From contig NZ_CP046176.1 in assembly GCF_013009555.1 (NCBI RefSeq), positions 4,805,501-4,869,500 on the forward strand: 64,000 nt of DNA, given 5' to 3'. This document shows positions 1,120-31,582 of the stretch, in pieces. The position numbers and the translations under genes are program-made. Each line of letters begins with the position of its first letter. Position 1 is the first letter of the stretch. Source of the stretch: Phocaeicola dorei. GTDB taxonomy: Bacteria; Bacteroidota; Bacteroidia; Bacteroidales; Bacteroidaceae. The notes below the pieces were generated by a model, which did not search any database, was not told the origin of the DNA, and worked only from the letters and a program-made list of their open reading frames with translations.

Positions 1120-2367
1120 CTAAATGCCACGCTTGCGTCCGGTCTTCTTCTTTTTCTTCATGCGGCGTGCAAAGGCTTCCTCCTCGTAATCCCGCGGATT
1201 GGTTTCCATAGAAAGAATGCCTGCCGCCAGTTCGAGCGTGCTAGAGGATTCGTGACGGTGATGCTGCCAAAGCTCTGTAGCGGAATGTCCACCCCGTTCC
1301 TTTTCGGGTATGTTTTCCAACCATTTGAAATAGTCGTTGAACACATTGGCGGAAAACTCCTTGCCCATGCGTGAACCGTTGAACACCTCCCGTCGGTCGT
1401 GGTCAATGAAGGTGACACCGTAGATACGCCCCCGCTCATTCTCACGGAACACCACATCGATATTTTTTTGCCCCAGCAGTTCCACAAACCGTTTCCGTGA
1501 ATCCGCCTGCCGCAAGGCACGGGCGATGTCCGCCTGTATGGAGGGTGCCCATTTCCCCTCTTTGAGAGCTTTCAGATTCATCAACATCCGCTTTTCCAAC
1601 AGTTCATTCCCGAAGCGTTTTCCGAAACGTGAACTCTTGAACGGCGGACTGACCACCTTGCCGGTATCATCCGTGGCAGAATAGACAATGCCGGTGTAGG
1701 GTATGCCGTTGTATTCCCCCCTGATCTGTTTCGCCTCGATGTTGAGTGTGGAAAGCAGTGCGCTGTATTCCCCGAAAGTCTGGAAACGGTAGCTTTCCAG
1801 TACGGCTTTAAGGGTGTTGCCTACCTGATGGCGGACATCTCCCAAGGAAGCGTCCACCTTTTTTAGTTCCGCTTTCGGATTCCGCCTTTCCGTGTCCGCT
1901 CCGTTGCGCAAGCCGAAATCCGTTTCCAGTTCCCGACAGGCGGTCATGGAACGGCGATGCTCGTAGGCGTCACTGATCTTTTTTCCCTGTCCGTCCACAC
2001 AGACACTGACGATATGAATGTGGGCATTATGGGTATCGGCATGTTTGTAGGCTATGTACGGCTGATTCCCATAGCCCATCTTCTGCATATACCGTTCCGC
2101 CAACTCTACCAATTGCCCATCAGTCAGCCGGTCTTCCGGTGCTGGAGAAAGGGAGATATGCAGGACGGGCTTCTCCGTATTGCGGTTTGCCAGCAGGTAG
2201 TTCTCAAAAGAGAGCAATGCCAGACGTATGTCCTCACTGGGCAATCCCAATCTGTCGGAAATCATGCGGTTGCCCGAAAGAATCTCGGCGGTACCTGCCG
2301 TTACCTTGTCGTAGTTATAGGCAAGTGCTCCGTAAAGGCTTGTTCCGTGACTTATTTTTGCAACCAT
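1120..2367 (-). CDS. mobB: MobB relaxase (mobilisation nuclease)
   Basis: A relaxase that would nick oriT and stay covalently bound to the transferred strand. The N-terminal domain carries an early tyrosine-rich stretch (HGTSLYGALAYNY, residues 7-19), a HISLSP strand, and the metal-binding histidine motif HADTHNAHIHIV typical of the Relaxase/Mobilisation nuclease family (MOBP-like). The C-terminal half is charged and ends in a basic run (KKKKKTGRKRG). It is 415 residues, normal for Bacteroides MobB. Its start overlaps the mobA stop by 16 bases, indicating translational coupling. It forms the mobA-mobB-mobC operon reading away from the candidate oriT. Confidence 0.92.
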   Translation of the reverse strand: MVAKISHGTSLYGALAYNYDKVTAGTAEILSGNRMISDRLGLPSEDIRLALLSFENYLLANRNTEKPVLHISLSPAPEDRLTDGQLVELAERYMQKMGYGNQPYIAYKHADTHNAHIHIVSVCVDGQGKKISDAYEHRRSMTACRELETDFGLRNGADTERRNPKAELKKVDASLGDVRHQVGNTLKAVLESYRFQTFGEYSALLSTLNIEAKQIRGEYNGIPYTGIVYSATDDTGKVVSPPFKSSRFGKRFGNELLEKRMLMNLKALKEGKWAPSIQADIARALRQADSRKRFVELLGQKNIDVVFRENERGRIYGVTFIDHDRREVFNGSRMGKEFSANVFNDYFKWLENIPEKERGGHSATELWQHHRHESSSTLELAAGILSMETNPRDYEEEAFARRMKKKKKTGRKRGI

Positions 2368-2833: not shown

Positions 2834-2981
2834 CCCCCGGCTTTTGCCGGGCAAGTTGGTTTTGGGATGCCCGAAAAGTTTCGGGCTGCCGAAAACACAA
2901 CTTGCTCTGTTCGCTTGAACAGAGAATCCTCCTTCGTCGGATTGCTGCGCGACGTTCACGGAACGCTGTGGTCCGACGAAG
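2834..2981. other. Candidate oriT: cluster of four inverted repeats
   Basis: Four palindromic units lie in tandem between mobA and the rightward tra genes. They are: CCCGGC-tttt-GCCGGG (2836-2851); a nested structure at 2851-2905 with outer arms GCAAGTTG/CAACTTGC and inner hairpin GCCCGAAA-ag-TTTCGGGC; CTCTGTTC-gctt-GAACAGAG (2905-2924); and long arms CTTCGTCGGA/TCCGACGAAG (2932-2941 and 2972-2981) enclosing CGTTC-acg-GAACG. Such clusters immediately upstream of relaxosome genes are the usual layout of CTnDOT-type oriT. The nick site cannot be assigned from sequence alone. Confidence 0.7.
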
Positions 2982-5923: not shown

Positions 5924-6253
5924 ATGGAATATCCGGTAAACAAAGGTGCCGGCAACCCCGTCGAGTTCAAAGGACTCAAGTCGCAATACCTGTTCGTCTT
6001 TGCCGGAGGGCTTGCGATGGTGCTCCTTATGGTAGTCTTTCTTTACCTGACGGGGGTGGACCAATGGATATGCTTATCCTTCGGAATCCTATCCGGCAGC
6101 CTGTTGGTGTGGGTGATATTCCGTTTGAATGCCCGTTACGGTGAACACGGGCTGATGAAGCTGCTGGCTGAAAAACGGCATCCACGCTATCTGATTCACC
6201 GCAAGAGAGTTTTCAGATTATTCACAAGAAGAAGAAAAAAACAACAATCATGA
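5924..6253 (+). CDS. traF: TraF (DUF4133), VirB3-like inner-membrane protein
   Basis: A 109-residue protein with two adjacent hydrophobic helices (LFVFAGGLAMVLLMVVFLYL and LSFGILSGSLLVWVIF) and a strongly basic C-terminus (RLFTRRRKKQQ). VirB3-like proteins sit in the inner membrane and interact with the VirB4 ATPase, here encoded next. The start is 5 bases after the traE stop. The stop overlaps the traG start (ATGA-type overlap). The same frame is open upstream, but that extension overlaps traE and is a shadow. Confidence 0.87.
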   Translation: MEYPVNKGAGNPVEFKGLKSQYLFVFAGGLAMVLLMVVFLYLTGVDQWICLSFGILSGSLLVWVIFRLNARYGEHGLMKLLAEKRHPRYLIHRKRVFRLFTRRRKKQQS

Positions 6254-8323
6254 GAAATGTATTAAAGGCGGAAACGCTGGAACGCAGATTCCCCCTGTTG
6301 TCGGTAGAAAACGGCTGTATCGTGAGCAAGGATGCCGACCTGACCGTGGCTTTCGAAGTGGAACTGCCCGAACTGTACACGGTAACGGCGGACGAGTATG
6401 AGGCAATGCACTCCTCCTGGATCAAAGCCGTGAAGGTATTGCCGGAACATAGTGTCGTCTGCAAACAGGACTGGTTTGTCAAGGAAACCTACCGTCCGAA
6501 GACCGATGACGGAGAACAGAGCTTCCTGACACGCAGCTATGAGCTGCATTTCAATGAAAGACCTTACCTGAATCACAAATGCTACCTGTTCCTGACGAAG
6601 ACAACCCGCGAACGCAGCCGCCGGAAGAGTGACTTCAATACCCTTTGCCGGGGATTCCTGTTGCCCAAAGAGATAACCGACAAGGATGCTGCCGCCCGCT
6701 TTCTTGAGGCGGTGGAACAGTTCGAGCGTATTATGAATGATTCCGGACATATAAGGCTTCGCCGTCTGGAAACAGACGAAATCACCGGTACGAAGGAACG
6801 TCCCGGACTGGTGGAAAAATACTTTTCCCTCTCGCTGGAGGATGAGACCGCCGTATTGCAGGACATCTGCCTCAAGCCCGGCAGGATGCGCATCGGTGAC
6901 AAACGCCTCTGCCTGCATACCCTTTCCGATACGGAAGACCTGCCCGGCAGACTTTCCACGGACATGCGCTACGAGAGGATGTCCACGGACCGCAGCGACT
7001 GCCGCCTCTCCTTTGCCGCACCCGTAGGACTGCTGCTGTCATGCAACCACATCTATTCGCAATACGTGTTCATCGACGACGCACAGGAAATCCTGCAGAT
7101 GATGGAGAAAAACTCGCGCAATATGCTCTCGTTGTCAAAATACAGCCGGAGCAATGCCGTTAACCAGGAGTGGACGGAGATGTATCTTGATGAGGCACAT
7201 ACCAAAGGAGTGCTTCCCGTCAGATGCCACTGCAACGTCATCGCCTGGGCGGAGGATGCGGAAGAGTTCCGCCGCATCAGGAACGACACGGGCAGCCAGC
7301 TGGCCATGATGGAATGCACGCCAAGGTATAACACCATTGACACACCGGTCATCTATTGGGCGGGAATCCCCGGAAATGCAGGCGACTTTCCATCCGAAGA
7401 ATCCTTTTATACCTTCCTGGAACAGGCCGTATGCCTCTTTGCCGGAGAGACCAATTACAGGAGCTCGCCCAGTCCGTTCGGCATCCGGCTGGCAGACCGC
7501 CAGAACGGGATACCGGTGCATGTGGATATTTCCGACCTGCCCATGAAAAAAGGCATCATTACCAACAGAAATAAGTTCATCCTCGGGCCTTCGGGCAGCG
7601 GAAAATCCTTTTTCACCAACCACCTTGTCCGCCAATACTACGAACAGGGAGCGCATATCCTGCTGGTGGACACTGGAAACAGCTACCAGGGGCTGTGCAG
7701 GATGATCCATGACCGTACCAACGGGAAGGACGGGATTTACATCACGTATGAAGAGGACAATCCGATATCCTTCAACCCGTTCTACACCGAATCCGGAAAA
7801 TTCGATGTGGAGAAGCGTGACAGTATCAACACGCTGATACTGACCTTGTGGAAACGGGAAGACGAGTCGCCGAAACGTTCGGAGGAGGTCGCTCTTTCCG
7901 GAGCAGTGAACGCCTATATCCGAAAGATTTCGGAGAACCGGAACATCAGACCGGACTTCAACGGTTTCTATGAGTTTGTCGCCGATGACTACAGAAGAAT
8001 GATTGAAGAGAAAAAGGTGCGTGAGAAGGATTTTGACATTGACGGTTTTTTGAACGTTCTGGAACCGTTCTACCGGGGCGGAGACTATGACTTCCTGCTG
8101 AACTCCGACAAGGAACTGGACCTGACAGGCAAACGGTTCATCGTATTCGAACTGGACAATATCAGCAGCAACAAAGTGCTTCTTCCGGTGGTGACACTGA
8201 TCATTATGGAAACTTTCATCGCCAAGATGCGCAGGCTCAAAGGTATCCGTAAGATGATATTGATAGAGGAATGCTGGAAAGCCCTGATGTCCGCCAATAT
8301 GAGCGAATACATCAAGTACCTTT
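6250..8323 (+). CDS. traG: TraG, VirB4-like conjugation ATPase, exon 1
   Basis: The main energising ATPase of the secretion channel. Exon 1 encodes the N-terminal VirB4-like domain, Walker A GPSGSGKS at residues 446-453 and the Walker B-like KMILIEE ending at residues 673-674. The gene is split in codon 692 (Phe), after its first base, by a group II intron. Joining 8323 to 10813 restores a single frame of 841 residues, and the sum of exon lengths is an exact multiple of three. The ATG overlaps the traF stop. Confidence 0.95.
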
Positions 8324-8883
8324 GTGCGCCCGTAAAGATTGCATCGTAAATATCTCTTTGGCAAGAGATTAGGAACGTGTTCTTTGAAAATAACCTATCA
8401 TCAGCCGACTTATCTGTTTCGGGAAAACTTAACCGAGCAGGGAGTGTAGCATGTCGGAAAAGTCATAAGTCAGTTAGTTACCAAACTGCGACTGAATGGC
8501 GAGATGAAAAGATAGATATGAGGATAAAGTCCGAATTGATTGAACGATAGTCTGAGTGGTCCCCCTTGAGGCTATGGCGTAAGGTAACTATCAACCGCCA
8601 TATCGTGATACTACTTCAGTGAATAGGTATGAATGTAGCAAGAACTTATCACGACACAACCGCAGTAAGCGAGTAAAGGACGGAAGTCGTATCCGACAAT
8701 CTATCATGCCAACAGTTACGATGTGATAAACGGGGATTACCTATCCCGAAGTGCCGAAAGGCTATTAGGTTCGACCTATGAAAATTCGGAGTGGTAACGG
8801 AGCTTCCATAGTAGTTTGAGCAAGGTAACGCCTTGTACATGGCGAAGGGAAGCAGCTAATTATTAATACAATTAACGGAAAAT

Positions 8884-10707
8884 GTGAGAGACATTATGAG
8901 AAGTCCAGAAAGAGTATTAAACAGTCTATCAGAACACAGTAAGGATGCAAGCTATAAGTTTGAACGTCTTTACAGAATTTTGTTCAATGAGGAAATGTTC
9001 TATGTTGCCTATCAGCGTATTTACGCTAAAGAAGGTAACATGACTAAAGGTTCGGACGGTCAGACCATTGACAACATGAGCCTGAAACGAATTGAAAAGT
9101 TGATTGATACGTTAAAAGACGAAACGTATCAACCCCAACCGTCAAAGAGAGTGTACATACCGAAGAAAAACGGTAAGAAAAGACCTCTTGGCGTGCCGAC
9201 TTTCAATGACAAGTTGATACAGGAAGTGGTAAGAATGGTATTGGAAGCCATATACGAGGGAAGTTTTGAATATACCTCGCATGGGTTTCGTCCCAATCGA
9301 AGCTGCCATACTGCATTAACTCATATCCAAAAGGAGTTTAGCGGTGCAAAATGGTTTGTAGAGGGAGATATAAAAGGCTTCTTTGACAATATAAACCATG
9401 ATGTATTGATAAACATTCTCTCGGAGCGCATTGCGGATGAACGATTCATCCGACTGATACGCAAGTTTTTGAAAGCTGGATATGTCGAGGAGTGGCAATT
9501 CCACAATACTTACAGTGGCACACCGCAAGGGGGTATCATCAGCCCGATATTGGCTAATATATACCTTGACAAGCTGGATAAGTATATAAAGGAATACATA
9601 GCCAAATTCGACAAAGGGAAGAAACGAAGATTCAGTAGAGAAAGTATGGACTTTGGCAATGCAAGAAAACGTATTGTGCGAAAATTGAAATCCGTAAAAG
9701 ATGAAAGGCAAAGGACAAAGCTAATCCTTGAACTGAAAGCAATAGAAAAAGGACGGGCTAAATATCCCAACGGCGAAGAAATGGACGCCGATTACAGAAG
9801 AATGAAATATGCAAGATATGCAGATGATTTTCTTGTGGGAATTATCGGAAGCAAGCAAGATGCACAACAGATAAAGGAAGATATTAAAAACTTCCTTGCT
9901 GATAAACTGGCATTGGAGCTGTCCGATGAAAAGACACTTGTCACTCACACGGAAAGACCAGCCAAATTTCTCGGATATGAAATCACTGTAAGAAAGTCCA
10001 ACGACCAAAAAAGGGATAAACGGGGTAGATTAAGAAGAACCTATGGTAAAAGGGTCTGCTTAAATGTCAGTATGGAAACTGTCCGTAAAAAACTTTTCAA
10101 TTTGGGAGTCTTAGAACTGACAAACCGTAACGGAAAGGAAATATGGAAACCGAAATGTAAATCGGGACTGATATTCAATGATGACCTTGAAATCCTTGAT
10201 AGTTATAATCGAGAAATCGTGGGTTTCTATAACTATTACTCCATAGCCAACAACTGCGCCCATGCCTTGAATAATTTCAAGTACATCATGGAATACAGCA
10301 TGTACAAAACGTTTGCAGGCAAATATAAATGCCGTACACGTGAGGTAAACAAAAAATATCGTAAGAACGGTAGGTTTATCATAAAACACATGACTAAAAC
10401 AGGTGTAAAGGAAAGATTCTTTTACGATGGTGGCTTCAAACGAAAGAAACCCACCTATAAATCGGAATGTGACACTATGCCACGAACAATTTATACTGCG
10501 GGACGGACAAGTCTTGTTGAAAGGCTGAAAGCCCGTGAGTGTGAACTATGTGGAGCGACAGACGACCTTGTTATGCACCATGTAAGGAAGCTAAAGAACT
10601 TGCAGGGAAAGGAAAGCTGGGAACGACACATGATTGCCCGCAAACGCAAGACGATTGCAGTGTGCAGGAGTTGTCATAAGAAGATACATGACGGAAAGAT
10701 AGACTGA
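8884..10707 (+). CDS. Group II intron reverse transcriptase/maturase with HNH nuclease
   Basis: A 607-residue intron-encoded protein. Reverse transcriptase blocks are clear: KKNGKKRPLGVPTFNDKLIQ, HGFRPNRSCHTAL, EGDIKGFFDNI, GTPQGGIISPILANIYL and the catalytic YADD at 312-315. A maturase/thumb region follows. The C-terminus is an HNH/zinc-finger endonuclease (CELCG at 553-557, MHHV, CRSCHKKIH). It would assist splicing and drive retrohoming. It is complete with no frameshift, so the intron may be mobile. The start is the first ATG; one at 8896 is also possible. Confidence 0.95.
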   Translation: MRDIMRSPERVLNSLSEHSKDASYKFERLYRILFNEEMFYVAYQRIYAKEGNMTKGSDGQTIDNMSLKRIEKLIDTLKDETYQPQPSKRVYIPKKNGKKRPLGVPTFNDKLIQEVVRMVLEAIYEGSFEYTSHGFRPNRSCHTALTHIQKEFSGAKWFVEGDIKGFFDNINHDVLINILSERIADERFIRLIRKFLKAGYVEEWQFHNTYSGTPQGGIISPILANIYLDKLDKYIKEYIAKFDKGKKRRFSRESMDFGNARKRIVRKLKSVKDERQRTKLILELKAIEKGRAKYPNGEEMDADYRRMKYARYADDFLVGIIGSKQDAQQIKEDIKNFLADKLALELSDEKTLVTHTERPAKFLGYEITVRKSNDQKRDKRGRLRRTYGKRVCLNVSMETVRKKLFNLGVLELTNRNGKEIWKPKCKSGLIFNDDLEILDSYNREIVGFYNYYSIANNCAHALNNFKYIMEYSMYKTFAGKYKCRTREVNKKYRKNGRFIIKHMTKTGVKERFFYDGGFKRKKPTYKSECDTMPRTIYTAGRTSLVERLKARECELCGATDDLVMHHVRKLKNLQGKESWERHMIARKRKTIAVCRSCHKKIHDGKID

Positions 10708-10717
10708 AATTAGTGGA

Positions 10718-10751
10718 GAGCCGGATACGCTGAGAGGTGTAAGTCCGGTTC
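10718..10751 (+). ncRNA. Group II intron domain V
   Basis: A 34-nt hairpin beginning GAGCCGGA and closing with TCCGGTTC. It contains the AGC catalytic triad, a GAGA tetraloop and a two-base bulge position typical of domain V. This is the ribozyme active site and confirms the intron class. Confidence 0.9.
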
Positions 10752-10812
10752 GGGGGCGAGCATTTGGAAACCTGCCATAGAAATATGATAAGGCGCCGGG
10801 TGCTTAGCCTAC

Positions 10813-11264
10813 TTAAGACCGTCAGAAAATATTTCGGCGAGGCTGTGGTGGTGACACAGGAGGTGGACGACATCATCAGCTCTCCGATTGTGAAAGAGGC
10901 CATCATCAACAACTCTGACTGCAAGATACTGCTTGACCAGCGGAAATACATGAACAAGTTCGAGCACATCCAGCGGCTGCTCGGTCTGACCGAGAAAGAG
11001 AAAGGGCAGATTCTTTCCATCAACCAGGCGAACCATCCCGGGCGCTTCTACCGGGAAGTATGGATAGGGCTTGGAGGAACCTGCTCGGCAGTATATGCCA
11101 CGGAAGTGAGCGAGGAAGAATACTTCACGTTCACGACCGAGGAGTCGGAGAAACTGGAAGTACAACGGATTGCCGGAGGGCCGGAGGGCAGTCTGGAAGG
11201 AGCCATCCGCCGTCTGGCGGAGAAAAAGCGAGAGGAACAGAAACAGGTATTAAACCCGAAATGA
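10813..11264 (+). CDS. traG: TraG, exon 2 (C-terminal ATPase domain)
   Basis: Continues from the split Phe692 codon: KTVRKYFGEAVVVTQEVDD, then SPIVKEAIINNSDCKILLDQ and the C-terminal region ending KQVLNPK. The segment holds the sensor-like VVVTQE strand that follows Walker B in VirB4 ATPases, so exon 1 alone could not make an active enzyme. Its stop overlaps the ATG of the next gene. An apparent start at 10764 lies in the intron and is not used. Confidence 0.93.
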
Positions 11265-22739: not shown

Positions 22740-23498
22740 TTATAAATTCTGTTGTTTATATGGCAATTGTTTCTTGCCAGGCTGCATTTGGCGCAATTTC
22801 TCTTTCCGCTTTCTGAGCAGGTCAACGGACATGTTCCTGCTTGTCCGATATTCCTCCTCACTCATCCGGCGAATGGAGGGAATGCCCGTCCGGGTCAGTG
22901 TATGGTTTACCATCCAGCCGTCCATGAAGTTTTCGGGGCAGAGGCTGTCATGGTGGATGACCTCACCTATGCAGCCATGTACGAGCATGTTGCAAACGGT
23001 CATCAGGCAACAGGTACGGCTGACATCCTCTGCAACCAGATAATTACCCAGGTGGCGTACATGATATGCCAGCAGCAGCCTTCCGCTTCCGCATGTCGGG
23101 TCACAGATACGTTTCCCTGTCGCTGTCTCCCCCGAATCGGTACATAAGACCATCAGGTCGCAGATATCCGGCGGAGTGAAGAACTGTCCGTTCACCTGCC
23201 GACCGCTTTTGGAGGATATTGCCATGAAGAGGTCACCGAACGCATCAAACCATCCGCCGGATTGCAATTCCCGCTGCATGAGCCGTATCCATCCGGTAAG
23301 CATTTCCATAAAATGCCTGTTCTGCTGCCGTTTGTATTTCCAGTCCATAAGGGGCGGTGCGCCGGGAGAGAACCCGTGAATGACATAACGCAGGAAATCG
23401 TTGAAAACGGATATCGGATCGTAGCCGTTCGAATAGGCGAAATCACAGACCATTTTCTCAAGCGGACGTATCGTCTGCGGTGTGTTGTATGGTACCAT
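22740..23498 (-). CDS. N6-adenine methylase-like protein without NPPY motif
   Basis: The SAM-binding half of a type I-like adenine methyltransferase: FFTPP (residues 106-110) and motif I DPTCGSG (133-139). After the HHDSLCPENF strand, where motif IV (NPPY/F) should follow, the sequence reads WMVNHTLTRTG; no NPP is present anywhere downstream. The protein is only 252 residues and has no specificity partner nearby. It may bind SAM or DNA without methylating, or use an altered motif. It lies in the seven-gene leftward operon. Confidence 0.82.
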   Translation of the reverse strand: MVPYNTPQTIRPLEKMVCDFAYSNGYDPISVFNDFLRYVIHGFSPGAPPLMDWKYKRQQNRHFMEMLTGWIRLMQRELQSGGWFDAFGDLFMAISSKSGRQVNGQFFTPPDICDLMVLCTDSGETATGKRICDPTCGSGRLLLAYHVRHLGNYLVAEDVSRTCCLMTVCNMLVHGCIGEVIHHDSLCPENFMDGWMVNHTLTRTGIPSIRRMSEEEYRTSRNMSVDLLRKRKEKLRQMQPGKKQLPYKQQNL

Positions 23499-23499
23499 A

Positions 23500-24306
23500 T
23501 TACTCTGATTTTTTATAGATTGTTACTATATGTCTTTTATGGTCAGTCTGTATCCTGACGGGAGAAATGCCAAGGAAAGAGAGATGGGTGTCCGCTTTCA
23601 GCATGTTCCATTCCCATGCAGGAAGTTCCTTCCATTCCATACGGTATGCCCAGAGTATGAACAGACCGGGACGGAATCCGTTGAAAAGCTTTCCGTGCAG
23701 AATCCCGACCAGCCGTTCCAGTTCTTCCCGCGAGTAAAGGGTGAATGCCTCATTCCGATAGACAAAGGCATCAGCCGGTTCAATATCCGGCTGACACTCG
23801 ATGAGGTATCTCGTCCATTCTTTTGTGGTGTACTTTTCGTACAGAGGATCGGGTTCCGTGTATTTCCATGCCCTGACGAATGTGTGGAAGAGGACGGCAC
23901 CGTTCCTGTGCCTTCCGGTATGCCCCCACATCCGGAACTGTTTGCTGCGTATGCCATCGGGAATCAGCAATTCCGGACCGGTTGTAACCCAAGGGCCTCC
24001 TTCGGTATTGTAACCGGTACACTTTTCATTTTCATGGCAAAAAGGTGTCTGTGGGAGAAGGCAGATATGAACTTCCCGGTCATCGCCCCTTTCAATGTGT
24101 GCCTGCGGATAATAGTCACCGCCACGGGTGATATAAGTGACAACGTCTCCTGCAGTCGGTAAACCGACTCTTTCCCTGTCCTCCCGCATCCTTGAAATCA
24201 GCCGGTTCACCTTCTCCACATCACATTCCTTTATGGAGCAGGCACACCCTTCATGCCTGTTGAGCAGAGTCAGACTTTCCAGGTCATAAAAATTACCGTA
24301 CTTCAT
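23500..24306 (-). CDS. Conserved ICE protein (DUF4121-like)
   Basis: A 268-residue soluble protein beginning MKYGNFYDLESLTLLNRHEG. Cysteine pairs (CACSIKEC) and many aromatic residues are notable; no catalytic motif is recognised. DUF4121 is a recollection for this N-terminus and size, unverified. The frame extends upstream to 24399, but those 31 codons overlap the preceding gene almost entirely. It overlaps that gene by 14 bases, so coupling is likely. Confidence 0.72.
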   Translation of the reverse strand: MKYGNFYDLESLTLLNRHEGCACSIKECDVEKVNRLISRMREDRERVGLPTAGDVVTYITRGGDYYPQAHIERGDDREVHICLLPQTPFCHENEKCTGYNTEGGPWVTTGPELLIPDGIRSKQFRMWGHTGRHRNGAVLFHTFVRAWKYTEPDPLYEKYTTKEWTRYLIECQPDIEPADAFVYRNEAFTLYSREELERLVGILHGKLFNGFRPGLFILWAYRMEWKELPAWEWNMLKADTHLSFLGISPVRIQTDHKRHIVTIYKKSE

Positions 24307-24571
24307 ATTGAGATCGTTTTTGTTGATACAATTTGACCTGACGGGTAACCATGTCGCAGAACTTCTGTCCGTTCTCCTTCTCGCTTCTGAAATAGGCAAT
24401 CATGTCCCAGAGATTCCGATTGAAGTAGCCGGTCCATTTTTCGTAATAGTGACTTCCATAGACCTTTCCGAACGTTTCCTCGAAAAGTGCAGGAGTCAGC
24501 CCTTCATCCCCGTGGTGGTTGTATTGCCACAGGGAGACAAGCAGCAGCTGGTTATAATCCAGTGTTTCCAT
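24293..24571 (-). CDS. Small unknown protein heading the seven-gene operon
   Basis: A 92-residue protein, METLDYNQLLLVSLWQYNHH at the start, rich in aromatic residues, with predicted helices and no known motif. It is the first gene after structured element A. The start at 24571 follows TTTTTTAAG-type sequence and is the only ATG that gives a full-length product. Confidence 0.7.
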   Translation of the reverse strand: METLDYNQLLLVSLWQYNHHGDEGLTPALFEETFGKVYGSHYYEKWTGYFNRNLWDMIAYFRSEKENGQKFCDMVTRQVKLYQQKRSQYEVR

Positions 24572-24641
24572 ATCTGTTCTTTTTTAAGTAAAACATCGGC
24601 CTACATGGGTAGGCATTTTTATTTCTTGATGTCTTTCCAGT

Positions 24642-24788
24642 CTGTTTTCCGGGGATTGCGGCAAGGCTTGGCGAAAGAAAATACCGCAGCGAAGCGAGGA
24701 TGATTTTCTTTCAGCCAACCCAGCCCCTGAAAGGGGCCGCCTTGCACAATCAGCCCGGAAAACGGCTATCTTTACAGCAAGAAATGAA
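24642..24788. ncRNA. Structured repeat element, copy A
   Basis: A three-way-junction-like fold. P1: CCGGGGATTGCGGCAAGGC (24649-24667) pairs with the segment 24739-24758. P2: TTGGCGAAAGAAAAT (24668-24682) pairs with 24703-24718 with one bulged A. P3: GCCCC-tgaaa-GGGGC (24723-24737). A second copy lies at 29569-29716 with compensatory changes. It sits 71 bases before the first gene of the leftward seven-gene run, with a further hairpin GCCTAC-atgg-GTAGGC (24599-24614) in between. It could be an mRNA leader, a separate RNA or a DNA-level site. Confidence 0.7.
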
Positions 24789-24827
24789 AAAGCAGACCTC
24801 GGATTCTCTGTTCTGAAGTCTGCTTTT
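24787..24827 (-). terminator. Terminator downstream of the DUF4120-like gene
   Basis: AAAAGCAGAC pairs with GTCTGCTTTT, giving a U-run on the minus strand. Its flanks (ATGACCGAAAAGC and GCTTTTTCATT on the minus strand) are shared with the terminator at 25173-25213. Confidence 0.8.
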
Positions 24828-24852
24828 CGGTCATTGTCAAGTTTCATGTTTT

Positions 24853-25143
24853 TCAGGTATGTATCTGCCATCCGTGGAACGGCTGCAATGTTACGGCAAA
24901 CGACCTGTCAGGTATTCCATGATAGAGCAGACCTCCTACGATACCTATTCTTCCATCAGCATAATGCTGGGTAAAGCCGAACGAGTATGGGGCATGGTCA
25001 TAGTAGAGTGAAATCTCACTGGGATAGTCAGGATTCCCTTCCCAACTCTTCAACCGTTCCAAGCACTTTTGAAGTGAGGTGTCACCAATGGATTCGGCAT
25101 AGCGCTTTACGTTCTCGAAATGTTCTTCATTCAGGATTTTCAT
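24853..25143 (-). CDS. Small conserved protein (DUF4120-like), monocistronic
   Basis: A 96-residue protein: MKILNEEHFENVKRYAES, then LYYDHAPYSFGF and the C-terminus QPFHGWQIHT. The pattern matches my recollection of DUF4120 from Bacteroides mobile elements; function unknown. It is isolated between two look-alike terminators, so it should be transcribed alone. Confidence 0.75.
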   Translation of the reverse strand: MKILNEEHFENVKRYAESIGDTSLQKCLERLKSWEGNPDYPSEISLYYDHAPYSFGFTQHYADGRIGIVGGLLYHGIPDRSFAVTLQPFHGWQIHT

Positions 25144-25172
25144 AACTTTGGTGTTTTATCTGTTAAACAATG

Positions 25173-25213
25173 AAAAAGCGAACTCCGGCTTTTCAGCACT
25201 GGAGTTCGCTTTT
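25173..25213 (-). terminator. Terminator of the six-gene accessory operon
   Basis: AAAAGCGAACTCC pairs with GGAGTTCGCTTTT. It lies 25 bases beyond the stop of the 25238-25735 gene and has the same flanking bases as the terminator at 24787-24827. Confidence 0.8.
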
Positions 25214-25237
25214 CGGTCATACTTGAATTCCATGTCG

Positions 25238-25735
25238 TCAAATAAAGGGTAAGTCGGTATCTTCCAGCATGGGCGCGAGCATCCGGCACATTTCGTAAGA
25301 CGCTTGATTTCGGCTGTCAATCCGGCACGACTCACGTTTTGCCATGGCGATGATACATGCCTTTATTGTTTTGAAAAATGTCTGTTCCAAGGTCTTATGG
25401 AAAAACGGGAGTGTCTCTGCAAAACGTTCGGGACTGAATCCCGTATCATTCAGTGCCTGTTCCAGTGCCTTTGCCGCCTTATACTCCCGGCTTTGTTCCA
25501 ACCGTTCCGGTAAACCTCCGGACTGCGCTATATGGAGCTGGCGTTCCAGTTCGGTAACGGCTGCCGAGAGCAACAGCTTGATGGCATCCGGATTTCCGAT
25601 GCCGAATTTCCGGTTGTCGGTTGTGTGAAATTCGATCAGGTTTACAGAGCCGTTCTCCTGAAGATTTCTGTAGTGCGTCAGGTTCTCACCCAGCATCTTT
25701 GTTCTTTGATTATCCATAGTTTTATTCATTTTCAA
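25238..25735 (-). CDS. Unknown helical ICE protein
   Basis: A 165-residue, mainly helical soluble protein. Leucine- and alanine-rich stretches around residues 55-110 could form coiled coil. No family recognised. The first residues (MKMNKTMDNQ) offer several starts. Last gene of the six-gene leftward operon, 24 bases after its neighbour. Confidence 0.68.
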   Translation of the reverse strand: MKMNKTMDNQRTKMLGENLTHYRNLQENGSVNLIEFHTTDNRKFGIGNPDAIKLLLSAAVTELERQLHIAQSGGLPERLEQSREYKAAKALEQALNDTGFSPERFAETLPFFHKTLEQTFFKTIKACIIAMAKRESCRIDSRNQASYEMCRMLAPMLEDTDLPFI

Positions 25736-25759
25736 GATGTGTAAAAGACTCGTCTGTTT

Positions 25760-26740
25760 TCAGTCAATCCAAAACGTGCCGCAATGCGGACATTTGGTAC
25801 CGCATGGGAAGCTGTTTATATAATAGGTATCTCTGTGACGTTTATGGTTCATGTCTCCAAAAGTACATCCGCCTTCCCGAAACCTTTTTTCATAAAGAGC
25901 TTCCTGCTTCTGATATTCATTTATGTGACTCTTCTGCAAAGTGACTTCCAGAGGCATCATTCCGGTTTCCCAACGGGTGGAATCACACCAGCTGTTCAAC
26001 AACCCGCAAATTTCATTCGCATAGGAATAATGTACCTGAGAATCCACAAAAAGATTGTCCCTGTAGAACGGAAGGGTGATGTCAGTCTGAAGACTTACAT
26101 GATACCCCGCACCATTCCGGCTGTCTACAATAGCAACAATGACACCTCCATAGAATCGGATGCGCTTGAAATCATGTGAAGTATCTCCCGTAATCAGTCT
26201 GGAGAATATGGCATTGAAATAGATGCGGAGTTCGCCACCGTACGGAGCATTGACCAGAAGTTCATGGAGTTCATCGGTAAACAGCCCTTCCTTCAGTTGA
26301 AGCGCTCGTCTGATTTTACGAAGAGAGACCGTTTCGGATTCTCCGCGCCCACAGCCTCCGTACACATAGCCCTCGATTTCGACTCCAAGGGAGTAGAACA
26401 TATTGGTTACAGCGGAATTGTCTATCAGTTCTTCTGCCGGATCGGTATTGTTCCGTTCGTAAAGCAGGTCTTTTATCTTCTCCTCATGTCGGATATATTC
26501 GGCGGATTTCCCGTCCGCTTCCATCTCATTCCGTATCTCCGAGAGATACCCTTGCAGGTTGTCATGTTCCTGATCGGCATACCACTCCAGGATTTGTTCT
26601 TCCAATGGACCGAGACTGTTCCGACGGATGCACTGCTCCTGCAAATCATCATGGCTGTCCAAATTCTCCCGGTAGTCCACGTAATAGAGGCTGACCGAAT
26701 GAGGAACATAGTCCGTCCAGGATTGTTTTTCCTTCTTCAT
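25760..26740 (-). CDS. Unknown ICE protein with C-terminal CPHCG
   Basis: A 326-residue acidic protein, not recognised. A glycine-rich GGCGRGESE segment lies near residue 130, and a CGTKCPHCG pair of cysteine knuckles lies at the very C-terminus, a possible zinc site. Its start overlaps the stop of the upstream gene (ATGA-type). Confidence 0.7.
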   Translation of the reverse strand: MKKEKQSWTDYVPHSVSLYYVDYRENLDSHDDLQEQCIRRNSLGPLEEQILEWYADQEHDNLQGYLSEIRNEMEADGKSAEYIRHEEKIKDLLYERNNTDPAEELIDNSAVTNMFYSLGVEIEGYVYGGCGRGESETVSLRKIRRALQLKEGLFTDELHELLVNAPYGGELRIYFNAIFSRLITGDTSHDFKRIRFYGGVIVAIVDSRNGAGYHVSLQTDITLPFYRDNLFVDSQVHYSYANEICGLLNSWCDSTRWETGMMPLEVTLQKSHINEYQKQEALYEKRFREGGCTFGDMNHKRHRDTYYINSFPCGTKCPHCGTFWID

Positions 26741-27102
26741 ACCGCTTCCTCCTCTGTCTTTAATGTTGTCACATCATCCACTCCGTTGACGGGCGGCAAA
26801 CAATCTATGATATATGACAGATGTCCGGCAAAGGCTTCATCCGGCTGGAAGTTTACCTCATTCCCGTATTCATTCTCTACACCATAGAGGCGCAAGTTGC
26901 CGTTCTCGATGGTAACCCTGCAAATCAGCACATCAGCCGGAGCCGGTTGTACGCTGCCTGTATTGACAGCAATGACGGGGCATTCCCCATCATTGCTGTT
27001 CCATTCATAGGAAGCTCCATGCAGTTCTATGGCTGCATACAATTCCCTGTATTCCATTTCTTTGATAGCCCTTATCCGGGCGTAAAAGTCTGTATGGTTC
27101 AT
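26737..27102 (-). CDS. Small unknown ICE protein
   Basis: A 121-residue protein beginning MNHTDFYARIRAIKEMEYRE. Beta-rich, with GNLRLYGVENEYGNEVNF; no known motif. The frame is open to 27171, but the extra residues are Cys/Phe/Pro-rich and implausible. It overlaps the next gene by 4 bases. Confidence 0.7.
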   Translation of the reverse strand: MNHTDFYARIRAIKEMEYRELYAAIELHGASYEWNSNDGECPVIAVNTGSVQPAPADVLICRVTIENGNLRLYGVENEYGNEVNFQPDEAFAGHLSYIIDCLPPVNGVDDVTTLKTEEEAV

Positions 27103-27177
27103 ATTGCGTTTTTTTGTTGGATTTCTGATACATGTGCAGAATGGAAACCCTGCCGGGAACCCATCCTGCATACTGAT

Positions 27178-28071
27178 TCAAGCCTGCACTTCCTTCTTTT
27201 CCATTCTGATGCTCCGCAGCTTGTACAGCAGGTAATGGAACAGTTCCAGGTCGTAGATGCGGTAAAAGAACTTTTCCCCTGTTTCTTTGACCGTTCCGGC
27301 GAAAGACACAGACTCTCGGTTGGTGGGATATTGCAGAAAATCCCCGTTTGCTGACAGGGTATGTCTGTTTTGCACCACTCTTTCCAGGAATCTGCCCATA
27401 TCGTCGTTTCCCTCATAGCCGGAGAAGTAGAGGAAATGATGGCGGCGCAAGCTTTGGAGAACCCTGGTTGTTTTCTGTCTTGCATCCTTGCCGGAGGATT
27501 CGTCCGTACCTTTCACCAGGTTGCAGATGAATTTCTTCTCTCCATTTTTGTCAAGGAACAGATATGGGACTATAACTGTGAAACTATGCCGTGTATGGTC
27601 AAATATTCCCATTGGTTTTTCTTTGAGGATGCCGCCTTTGAATGTGACCTTCCGGTAATGTCTGTCCATTTGCTGTTCCAAATCCTTTCTTGGTGTGTTC
27701 ACGGAACGCAGCCCCGTAAAATACCGTCCGTCTATCCGGAAGCAGAACCGGTGAATGCCGGCATGATACGGCTCGCTCATGAAAAAGAAATTCCGGGTGT
27801 GCCGGATGGGTGGCTGGGTGTCCATATAGTCAAAATAGTCCTCTTCCGTAATTTCACAGAACGGGGCGCAGAGAGACTGCAGGTGGATCTGCATTTTTTT
27901 GCAGATGGCATTCCCGGGCACGGCAATGAGGCTGGGGTTATTTTCCCTTTCCCTCAATTCTTCCAGTGTTTCGTGACCATAATCACTATGTATCCCATCA
28001 GACATGACGGTCAGGCAACTGCCGTCAAAGCAACGTGAATCAATGATGAATCTCAAATTGTCGTTTTTCAT
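27178..28071 (-). CDS. Unknown ICE protein, about 300 residues
   Basis: Not recognised. The N-terminal half has HETLEELRERENNPSLIAV, the C-terminal half FYRIYDLELFHYLLYKLRS. No signal peptide, membrane segment or catalytic signature seen. It starts 3 bases after the upstream stop, indicating tight coupling within the six-gene operon. Confidence 0.7.
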   Translation of the reverse strand: MKNDNLRFIIDSRCFDGSCLTVMSDGIHSDYGHETLEELRERENNPSLIAVPGNAICKKMQIHLQSLCAPFCEITEEDYFDYMDTQPPIRHTRNFFFMSEPYHAGIHRFCFRIDGRYFTGLRSVNTPRKDLEQQMDRHYRKVTFKGGILKEKPMGIFDHTRHSFTVIVPYLFLDKNGEKKFICNLVKGTDESSGKDARQKTTRVLQSLRRHHFLYFSGYEGNDDMGRFLERVVQNRHTLSANGDFLQYPTNRESVSFAGTVKETGEKFFYRIYDLELFHYLLYKLRSIRMEKKEVQA

Positions 28072-28074
28072 GGC

Positions 28075-29208
28075 TCAGATGTTTTGAAGGTCCAACAATC
28101 TTTTTGCGGCACCGAGAGCATTGGAGGTAAGCTGCCGTTGCCATGCCTTGTTTTTGGGTGACCAGCGGAATCCGGAGGATTTCAGTTCCTTTCGTCTGCT
28201 GTCTTCGGGAATCCTGTCAAACAGGATCTGAAGGCGGTCTTCCCCATAGTTCCATACAAGTGTTCCGCCCTCGAACGGCACTTCCTTGTTTTCCCGGCTT
28301 TGCATCGCTTTCAGCTTTTCGCGCATCCGTTCCGCCAGTTCCGGCAATTGGAAGAATTTGTTTCTCGGTGTGATGACGGGTTTCTTCACCCTTGCGTTAT
28401 ATTCGGAAATGAAGTCCACGGCCCTACGGACGATTTCCACTTCCCCGTGATTGGCCAGGGTGGATACCTTGTTCAGGATGCTGCTGACAAACAGGGCACG
28501 GCTATAGCCCCGGCATTGTCCGGTATCAATCCCATGGATGGTGTCGGCGCTGCTCTTGATGTCGCGTTTGAGCGTCTGCCATGCCTTTTCCTGTTTCTCT
28601 TCCTCCGGTCGTGCGGCTTCCTTTTTCCGTCTGATGGTTTCAAGAACTTTTTTCCGCCAATTGCGGAATTCTTCGTAACAGTTCTGATAGCTTCTGTTCG
28701 TTTTTTCCTGCCTGTAGTAATCAAATCCGCTCCGTCCCGTCACCATCGGGTTGGCACAGTGGGAGAGGACCGAGAGCTGGGCGGACAACTTCTGCCGGTA
28801 GGCGGCGATGTATGTATCCCCTTCCTCTTCCGGCATGAGTTGCAGGTCGTTGTGCAGCTCCTCTCCGTAAATCATGATGTCCGTCTCGCCGCGAATCTCC
28901 GGATTGAAGGAACTCCAGGCGTATGCGTCGCAAGCCTGTTTCCACATATCATCCAGATAGCCCGGATGTTTGAATGCTACGGCTTGCCAGTCTTTGAAAT
29001 CCCTGGAATGCAATTCATTGCGATCTTCCGGATTTCCGTACAGGTGTACATAGTTGCCCGTTCCATGATGCTCCTTTCTGAAATGGAACGGTACGGGGGG
29101 ATAGTCCGTACCTTTTTTCCGGATCATCGTGACCCTGTGTGCATTCTCTATGGTAAGGTCTGCTACTTGCTCTTCGCAGACCTTTGCTGTTGTTTCATTC
29201 ATAATCAT
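28075..29208 (-). CDS. Unknown ICE protein with C-terminal SPKNKAWQRQLT domain
   Basis: A 377-residue charged protein. Its C-terminal 60 residues (VWNYGEDRLQILF, then GFRWSPKNKAWQRQLT) are a module I recall at the ends of several plasmid and ICE proteins of unknown role. The central part contains a helical, Lys/Glu-rich linker around residues 180-220. Second gene of the six-gene operon, 14 bases after its neighbour. Confidence 0.72.
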   Translation of the reverse strand: MIMNETTAKVCEEQVADLTIENAHRVTMIRKKGTDYPPVPFHFRKEHHGTGNYVHLYGNPEDRNELHSRDFKDWQAVAFKHPGYLDDMWKQACDAYAWSSFNPEIRGETDIMIYGEELHNDLQLMPEEEGDTYIAAYRQKLSAQLSVLSHCANPMVTGRSGFDYYRQEKTNRSYQNCYEEFRNWRKKVLETIRRKKEAARPEEEKQEKAWQTLKRDIKSSADTIHGIDTGQCRGYSRALFVSSILNKVSTLANHGEVEIVRRAVDFISEYNARVKKPVITPRNKFFQLPELAERMREKLKAMQSRENKEVPFEGGTLVWNYGEDRLQILFDRIPEDSRRKELKSSGFRWSPKNKAWQRQLTSNALGAAKRLLDLQNI

Positions 29209-29222
29209 TACTTTTTTAAATG

Positions 29223-29498
29223 TCAGCCGTAAATCATTTCTTCCAGTTCATCGTCCGTCAACAGGCGGATCTCTTCGTCCGAACAATAGTAAGCGATTTC
29301 TTCGTCCAAATCGAATGCTGCCGGATCAAGGCTTCTGATGCCATCCAGCAGTTCCTGTTCCAGTCTTTCTACGGAAACCAGATAGTTCCCATCTTTGCCT
29401 TGCACTTCCCGTGCAGGATAGCTCATTTCCCGATAAACCAACATCGTCATTTCCGGATTGGCTTCCTGCTGTCCTTTGCTTGTCGTCTTTCTGTTCAT
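29223..29498 (-). CDS. Small acidic protein heading the six-gene operon
   Basis: A 91-residue protein with a strongly acidic C-terminal half (DLDEEIAYYCSDEEIRLLTDDELEE). Acidic proteins of this size on mobile DNA can be DNA mimics or antirestriction factors, but there is no direct evidence here. It is the first gene after structured element B. Confidence 0.68.
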   Translation of the reverse strand: MNRKTTSKGQQEANPEMTMLVYREMSYPAREVQGKDGNYLVSVERLEQELLDGIRSLDPAAFDLDEEIAYYCSDEEIRLLTDDELEEMIYG

Positions 29499-29568
29499 AC
29501 CTTTATTTTTTAAAGTTTGACATGATCGGCTCCATGGAGCCGGATTTTCGTTTTCTTACTTGCCGGGC

Positions 29569-29716
29569 TGTCCTTTGTCGGGGATTGAGCAAGGCTTGGC
29601 AAAAGAAAATACCGCAGCGAAGCGAGGATGATTTTCTTTTAGTCAACCAGCCCCTGAAAGGGGCCGCCTTGCGCAATCAACCCGACAAATGGCTATATTT
29701 GCAGGTAAGAAATTGA
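29569..29716. ncRNA. Structured repeat element, copy B
   Basis: The same fold as 24642-24788. P1 is TCGGGGATTGAGCAAGGC (29578-29595) with 29666-29685. P2 is TTGGCAAAAGAAAAT (29596-29610) with 29631-29646. P3 is GCCCC/GGGGC (29650-29664). The 20-base P2 loop and P3 are identical to copy A, while stem differences are paired. Near its right end TATATTTG (29694-29701) matches a plus-strand promoter box. A palindrome CGGCTCC-at-GGAGCCG (29527-29542) lies between it and the operon start at 29498. Confidence 0.7.
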
Positions 29717-31474: not shown

Positions 31475-31506
31475 TTCATGTGTGAAAAGCATTTATGTAC
31501 TTTCTT

Positions 31507-31582
31507 TGGTGGTGCCACCAGGAATCGAACCGGGGACACAAGGATTTTCAGTCCTTTGCTCTACCAACTGAGCTATGGCACC
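31507..31582 (-). tRNA. tRNA-Phe (GAA)
   Basis: A 76-nt cloverleaf with acceptor stem GGTGCCA/TGGCACC, D-arm GCTCAGTTGGTAGAGC, anticodon GAA in loop CTGAAAA, T-arm CCCGGTTCGATTCCTGG-like, and encoded CCA at the 3' end. Its 3' end faces the ICE. Confidence 0.97.

Follow-up and report, generated by a model that had tools for sequence, protein, structure and literature searches.

Single-strand promoters have been shown in enterobacterial plasmids, and the systems closest to the one described here are those of plasmid F, where they are called Frpo1/Frpo2 (ssi3), and of ColIb-P9, which also has single-stranded promoters. Here we analyze a stretch of 64,000 nucleotides (nts) of Phocaeicola dorei, which we call the window (contig NZ_CP046176.1, positions 4,805,501 to 4,869,500 of the forward strand). 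In it, two copies of a folded element, A and B, lie within an integrative and conjugative element (ICE), each ahead of a leftward operon. We put at roughly 0.82 the probability that such elements are promoters acting as single-stranded DNA (ssDNA), of a new and probably convergent kind, in Bacteroidales ICEs, a reading drawn from sequence comparison. According to the parts of PMC9849209 that deal with them, Frpo1 and Frpo2 of F are 92% identical, lie about 5 kb apart and are needed for early expression in the recipient, and elements A and B resemble that pair in being 87-88% identical and 4.9 kb apart.

An earlier note on this DNA, made from the letters alone, had described a duplicated fold ahead of two accessory operons. 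Both copies are there, each in front of an accessory operon of an ICE, together with the compensatory changes it listed (C24649-G24758 in A becomes T29578-A29685 in B, and G24673-C24712 becomes A29601-T29640). The fold is larger than first noted, with an outermost stem TTTCTT/AAGAAA in both elements; the full extents are given in Table 1. Each element is found 3′ of the end of a minus-strand gene and 5′ of a minus-strand start codon (24571 for A, 29498 for B), and a minus-strand open reading frame (ORF) of 95 amino acids (aa) at 24584-24871 crosses copy A. A repeat finder reports the A/B similarity as 87% over 75 nts plus 88% over 58 nts, and a 30-nt core occurs exactly twice in the window and in none of 100 shuffles. 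Both strands of A and B fold better than all 200 of their own dinucleotide shuffles (z from -4.3 to -5.3). Using DNA parameters, the plus strand folds at -48.5 vs. -45.7 kcal/mol for the minus strand in element A, and at -43.0 vs. -41.3 kcal/mol in element B. The author of the earlier note knew of no named RNA family with this shape, and Rfam agrees: there are no matches at the gathering score and none overlapping either element up to an E-value of 10, the permissive search reporting only matches far below the gathering scores, all of them off the elements. The two copies are not a lone pair, as their own genome (5.63 Mb in one contig) has ten BLAST matches at E-value ≤0.001.

The element is in fact a dispersed Bacteroidales family. 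BLAST finds matches in 12 of 201 family genomes, and further ones in seven plasmid records, two phage records and four viral-contig stretches. The core pattern occurs in at least 120 genome-contig stretches, nearly all titled Bacteroidales; among the matches listed, the only other titles are those of two metagenome-assembled genomes (Clostridium/Clostridiales), which we take for binning errors. Counted by genome, the core pattern is present in 33 of 399 family genomes, and in a wider sample of the phylum it is present in 1 of 99, the P. dorei genome itself. The comparisons below use 136 non-identical copies whose flanks were long enough; those with short flanks or a different core were set aside, uncounted. 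The 136 cluster into 44 copies below 80% identity and 66 copies below 90% identity.

Which of the two strands is the one that folds? For this question we use a strand-neutral fold, in which G.T pairs are forbidden, and we count the single mismatches inside helices. Read on the plus strand, the 44 copies have 32 G.T mismatches to 11 A.C mismatches (p = 0.002), and folding the complement instead results in the same bias (38:9 in plus terms). The ratio is 47:15 in the 66 copies and 110:29 in all 136, for which p-values come out too small because the copies are related. There is an excess of G.T over A.C, and therefore it is the strand opposite the mRNA that has been selected to fold. With G.T pairs permitted, 37 of the 44 copies are more stable on the plus strand (by 2.95 kcal/mol on average). 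The folding strand is the plus strand, opposite the mRNA.

The covariation in the arms says that the fold itself is conserved. RNAalifold on a plain MAFFT alignment of the 44 copies reports the P2 stem only, with 11 pairs, four of them with double changes, since the sequences of the outer arms cannot be aligned. For that same reason, we use an arm-swap test in place of a covariance model, in which the pairing of each arm with its own partner is compared to its pairing with the arms of the other 37 copies. Own-arm pairing is above the mean of the 37 foreign arms in 36 of 38 copies for the inner stem, in 35 of 38 for the outer stem (beyond the -7 box), and in 37 of 38 for P2. Moreover, the own arm is the best of all 38 in 22, 19 and 21 copies, respectively. 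In the 20 copies with a 22-nt spacing between boxes, pairing is kept in at least 60% of the copies at 23 arm positions that have at least three Watson-Crick types.

The 3′ arm carries a Bacteroides promoter, TTG-N22-TAnnTTTG. The consensus of the primary sigma factor of Bacteroidota, as the pertinent part of PMC7366714 gives it, has TAnnTTTG at -7 and TTTG near -33; our scoring at -33 uses TTG only, not the whole TTTG. An exact TAnnTTTG is found within 140 nts 3′ of the core in 84 of the 136 copies, 83 of them at 40-59 nts; the mirror-image position of the 5′ arm has it in 0 of the 136. Looser boxes are found in 127 of 134 parsed copies, with the TTG at a spacing of 19-24 nts (22 nts in 79 of the 127). 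The hairpin of one strand rebuilds both promoter boxes: mean pairing over 38 copies is 0.96 at the -33 box, 0.35-0.44 at seven of the eight bases of the -7 box, and 0.88 over the next 15 nts. As duplex DNA, the arm promoter faces away from its operon. With the strand folded, the 5′ arm would be the template and would continue into the gene, which is a matter of geometry and not of measurement.

For a promoter that could serve the operons in duplex DNA, we scanned the 66 copies with a strict pattern, TTG-N19-24-TAnnTTTG, over 200 nts on the gene side and 300 nts on the far side. None has a strict gene-facing promoter on the gene side, one has it beyond the far arm, and one has a promoter for a plus-strand RNA containing the fold, while 39 of the 66 have the strict promoter inside the 3′ arm. 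The window's tra operon, in contrast, does have a gene-facing TTG-N23-TACTTTTG, and ahead of its mob operon there are two -7 boxes that face the genes, with no TTG at that distance. An ATG ORF of at least 55 aa starts 74-131 nts from the core in 64 of the 66 copies, and these first genes fall into 21 BLASTP groups, some singletons among them being perhaps spurious.

Several expectations of the earlier note extend to the whole family. The three-stem fold is conserved under covariation, homologs do covary (their failing to do so was one of the refuting outcomes that it named), and the one G-T pair that it took as a sign of plus-strand folding is borne out by the family-wide G.T to A.C ratio of 32:11. 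Its proposal of an RNA is another matter, as promoters facing the gene or giving an RNA with the fold are almost absent from the 66 copies, and the element is probably not an RNA. The note had also seen a contradiction between a plus strand that folds and a position that suggests a minus-strand operon leader. Both observations stand, and they would be in no conflict if the folding molecule were the transferred plus strand of DNA, from which the minus-strand mRNA would be templated.

The orientation of the elements relative to the origin of transfer (oriT) bears on that last point. The ICE, 106.3 kb long and bounded by a 39-bp direct repeat (attL/attR), also codes for a MobC-like protein and a coupling protein on the minus strand, and for tra genes on the plus strand. 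The putative oriT is a variable hairpin followed by a conserved tail, of which the TGTTC..TTGAACA part is kept in 18 of 20 aligned loci. In known oriTs, the strand that is nicked has nic on the 3′ side of a hairpin like this one. Relaxase genes usually belong to the lagging side, as stated in the portion of PMC11541004 concerned with gene order. The side of the oriT tail and the location of the relaxase gene together suggest that nic is on the plus strand, and therefore that plus is the strand transferred (T-strand). The oriT pattern is present in 25 of 399 family genomes. An oriT match is found on the same contig for 77 of the 117 element places listed, and three BLAST places bring these to 80, two of which are more than 100 kb from any oriT and were left out. 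For the 78 places within 100 kb of an oriT (23 oriTs), the orientation of the element relative to oriT is concordant in all 78 and discordant in none. In the ICE of the window, going around the circle from oriT, four copies come at 21.8, 26.7, 31.9, and 41.5 kb, within the first 42 of its 106 kb. The folded strand is then the template strand of the gene and has a fixed orientation to oriT; that it is also the nicked strand is what we infer.

The mechanism that we propose is the following. In conjugation, the plus strand of the ICE, as the T-strand, would enter the recipient 5′ end first, and each entering element would fold back as a long hairpin, imperfectly paired and branched at its head. 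The 3′ arm would take the part of the non-template strand, with the -33 TTG paired and the -7 TAnnTTTG in a preformed bubble, and the 5′ arm that of the template, running on into the operon. The RNA polymerase of the recipient with the primary Bacteroidota sigma factor would bind the fold and transcribe the operon from the incoming strand, ahead of second-strand synthesis. Once the DNA is double-stranded, the boxes would point the other way and the operon would be silent. In this manner, the operons may express establishment genes in the recipient, one of them a DNA methyltransferase; we infer the term establishment, because most of the genes behind the elements have no known family. Our best reading by analogy is that the element works like Frpo without being in the Frpo sequence family, and, as reported for Frpo, it is likely to serve as well in priming the complementary strand with RNA. 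At about even odds, we would go further and see an independently evolved regulon of Bacteroidales ICEs, in which many unrelated establishment operons per ICE fire from the incoming strand by means of the primary sigma factor and are off in the resident duplex, and in which the near-fixed branched head is a dedicated recognition part without a counterpart in Frpo.

Other explanations account for some of these observations. A structured leader RNA of the minus-strand operons (a riboswitch, an antiterminator or a stability element) would sit just where the element does, past the end of one gene and before the start codon of the next, and the minus strand folds well too. It is highly improbable, however, given that the G.T/A.C asymmetry (32:11) puts the folding on the opposite strand, that a full gene-facing promoter is found upstream in only 1 of 66 copies, that the conserved boxes of the opposite strand are left unexplained, and that the first genes belong to 21 unrelated groups. 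One could instead take the boxes at face value, as an ordinary duplex promoter that fires outward and yields a small or antisense RNA, the hairpin being where a regulator binds. This would not explain why the two arms pair with each other through the -7 box and past it, why there is a strand asymmetry, or why there is a tie to the orientation of oriT, and past the 3′ arms of A and B there is no divergent gene, only the ends of same-strand genes. We consider this very unlikely as the whole explanation, even if the -33/-7 spacing belongs to the same class as that of the tra promoter (22 and 23 nts), which makes some activity in the duplex possible.

A single-strand initiation site (ssi), where polymerase makes only a primer for complementary-strand synthesis, and no mRNA, would be needed once per ICE, yet there are several (four in that of the window), they stand at a fixed 74-131 nts before a gene in 64 of 66 copies, and the operons are without another promoter. 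This is also a slim prospect, despite the like anatomy and Frpo having been described, in the title of a 1997 paper by Masai and Arai, as serving both roles. Finally, invertible promoters are common in Bacteroides, and inverted repeats flanking a promoter aimed away from the operon are what a phase-variable promoter in the OFF position looks like. Nonetheless, the ON orientation is found in 0 of 136 copies (box at the mirrored place), the orientation to oriT is the same in 78 of 78, and the arms differ at the -7 box itself, which leaves an invertible promoter with next to no chance. The leader RNA, a plus-strand RNA, the outward duplex promoter alone and the invertible promoter were all rejected.

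There are also a number of observations that weigh against an ssDNA promoter. Seven of the 44 copies fold no better on the plus strand, and taken helix by helix the G.T to A.C counts are 9:2, 8:3, and 3:2 (38 copies), weak singly. The -7 box of element A is one letter off TAnnTTTG, seven of 134 parsed copies have no recognizable box, the strict pair is missing in 27 of 66, and pairing drops a second time, at -14 to -12, which the proposed fold does not account for. Some ATG ORF of at least 55 aa is also present on the far side in 43 of 66 copies, and therefore it is the tight distance and the recurring protein groups that bear the argument, not the ORF itself. As for transfer, the polarity of nic comes from the conservation of oriT, the orientation count leaves aside 40 listed places whose contigs have no oriT match, and the concordance may be in part common descent of the ICE backbone. 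The nearest copy, at 21.8 kb from oriT, is behind the tra genes, while F has it adjacent. On linear maps, 31 of the 78 copies are on the mob side of oriT, and the mob-side copies could be placed after the att junction for the ICE of the window only. In F itself, we took as Frpo2 and Frpo1, by position, the 559-nt repeats upstream of ssb and of the next operon. Both fold better on the T-strand (-140.1 and -146.8 vs. -129.0 and -132.5 kcal/mol), and a scan of the two repeats for a -35/-10 pair found none, so that the control supports the strand only.

Table 1. Coordinates of the elements, their boxes, and the neighboring genes and transfer features (window positions, unless a locus or the genome is named).
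Feature	Position	Strand	Remark
Element A, folded single-strand promoter candidate	24620..24787	+ (plus folds)	extended stem
-33 box of A (TTG)	24742..24744	+	pairs with 5′ arm
-7 box of A	24767..24774	+	TATCTTTA, 22 nts past TTG
Conserved P2 head of A	24682..24711	+	TACCGCAGCGAAGCGAGGATGATTTTCTTT
Short second hairpin, element A to operon	24599..24614	-	expected mRNA 5′ end
Element B, folded single-strand promoter candidate	29550..29715	+ (plus folds)	extended stem
-33 box of B (TTG)	29669..29671	+	
-7 box of B	29694..29701	+	TATATTTG, 22 nts past TTG
Conserved P2 head of B	29610..29639	+	
Short second hairpin, element B to operon	29527..29542	-	
First gene behind A	24293..24571	-	92 aa, no Pfam/NCBIfam match
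DUF4121 gene, second in operon A	23500..24399	-	E 3.5e-131
N6 DNA methyltransferase domain protein, operon A	22740..23498	-	PF02384, E 2.2e-9
First gene behind B	29223..29498	-	91 aa, acidic, no Pfam match
Second gene of operon B	28075..29208	-	377 aa, no family above cut-off
Relaxase (MobA/VirD2-like)	1120..2367	-	lagging side of oriT if nic on plus
Putative oriT	2850..2925	+	variable hairpin, then conserved ACACAACTTGCTNTGTTCG on plus 3′ side
attR	31493..31531		39 bp = genome 4730765-4730803 (attL), overlaps tRNA-Phe 3′ end
Members of acidic first-gene family	L038:1723-2229, L054:7004-7492, L157:1158-1661, L080:5269-5760, L133:7335-7826		

The genes directly behind other copies of the element include YpsA/SLOG and DUF4326. 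At one locus (L010:1660-2217), such a gene has a weak sigma-70-like match, below the cut-off. One family of first genes codes for acidic proteins of 163-169 aa (isoelectric point 4.1, charge -22 to -32), which resemble DNA mimics such as ArdA. It is possible that they are DNA mimics; a search of the family by sequence against the PDB returned no match. A relative in G080 (L011:2093-2156) has one more copy of the element, ahead of its DUF4120 gene. The window has a DUF4120 gene as well (25144-25240 compared), and we see no element match there, only a repeat of the terminator-like region at 25169-25235. Near the 5′ end of the would-be mRNA, the 5′ untranslated region folds with z < -2 in 20 of the 44 family copies (mononucleotide shuffles). 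Elsewhere in the window, a group II intron with an RT/HNH ORF (8884-10707) and an Rfam intron match at 10716-10812 lies between a traG-like ORF (6250-8349) and a further ORF (10764-11264), the whole region being 6250-11264.

If the elements are ssDNA promoters, the same trick would have arisen again, with different boxes, in the ICEs of gut Bacteroidales. The element would be a marker for the genes expressed first in the recipient, many of which have no known function, and such genes would be candidates for anti-defense roles. Early gene expression in Bacteroides conjugation would become directly testable.

In the open-licence PMC literature, we found no description of ssDNA promoters in Bacteroidota, which is no proof of their absence. 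The likeness to F and ColIb-P9 is in the arrangement: ahead of several operons, the transferred strand (here the putative one) forms a long hairpin whose stem brings the promoter boxes back together, and the genes have, or here would have, the T-strand as template. The differences from Frpo are in the boxes (-33 TTG/-7 TAnnTTTG here vs. -35/-10), in the length (about 165 nts here vs. a repeat of more than 550 nts), and in the setting, a Bacteroidales ICE and further from oriT. Similarity in sequence to F Frpo is absent, with a best E-value of 0.33 against the part of F in which the two repeats lie. Frpo′ and Frpo*, as presented in the relevant sections of Samuel et al. 2024 (PMC11541004), are likewise predicted ssDNA promoters before T-strand anti-defense operons; unlike here, they were sought by BLAST to known Frpo and by TTGACA/TATAAT boxes, and the string "Bacteroid" occurs 0 times in the main text of that paper. 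Another parallel is EGeRS1 of the pLS20 plasmids, which, in the account of it in PMC8708921, consists of repeats ahead of several establishment operons, as here. The discussion of EGeRS1 in that paper asks of an ssDNA promoter that the boxes be in the fold and that the nicked strand be the template, and it rejects one for EGeRS1, whose fold shows no promoter and whose non-template strand is the one that is nicked. Unlike EGeRS1 as so described, the elements of the Bacteroidales ICEs have both boxes in the fold, and, by the polarity that the oriT suggests, their nicked strand would be the template.

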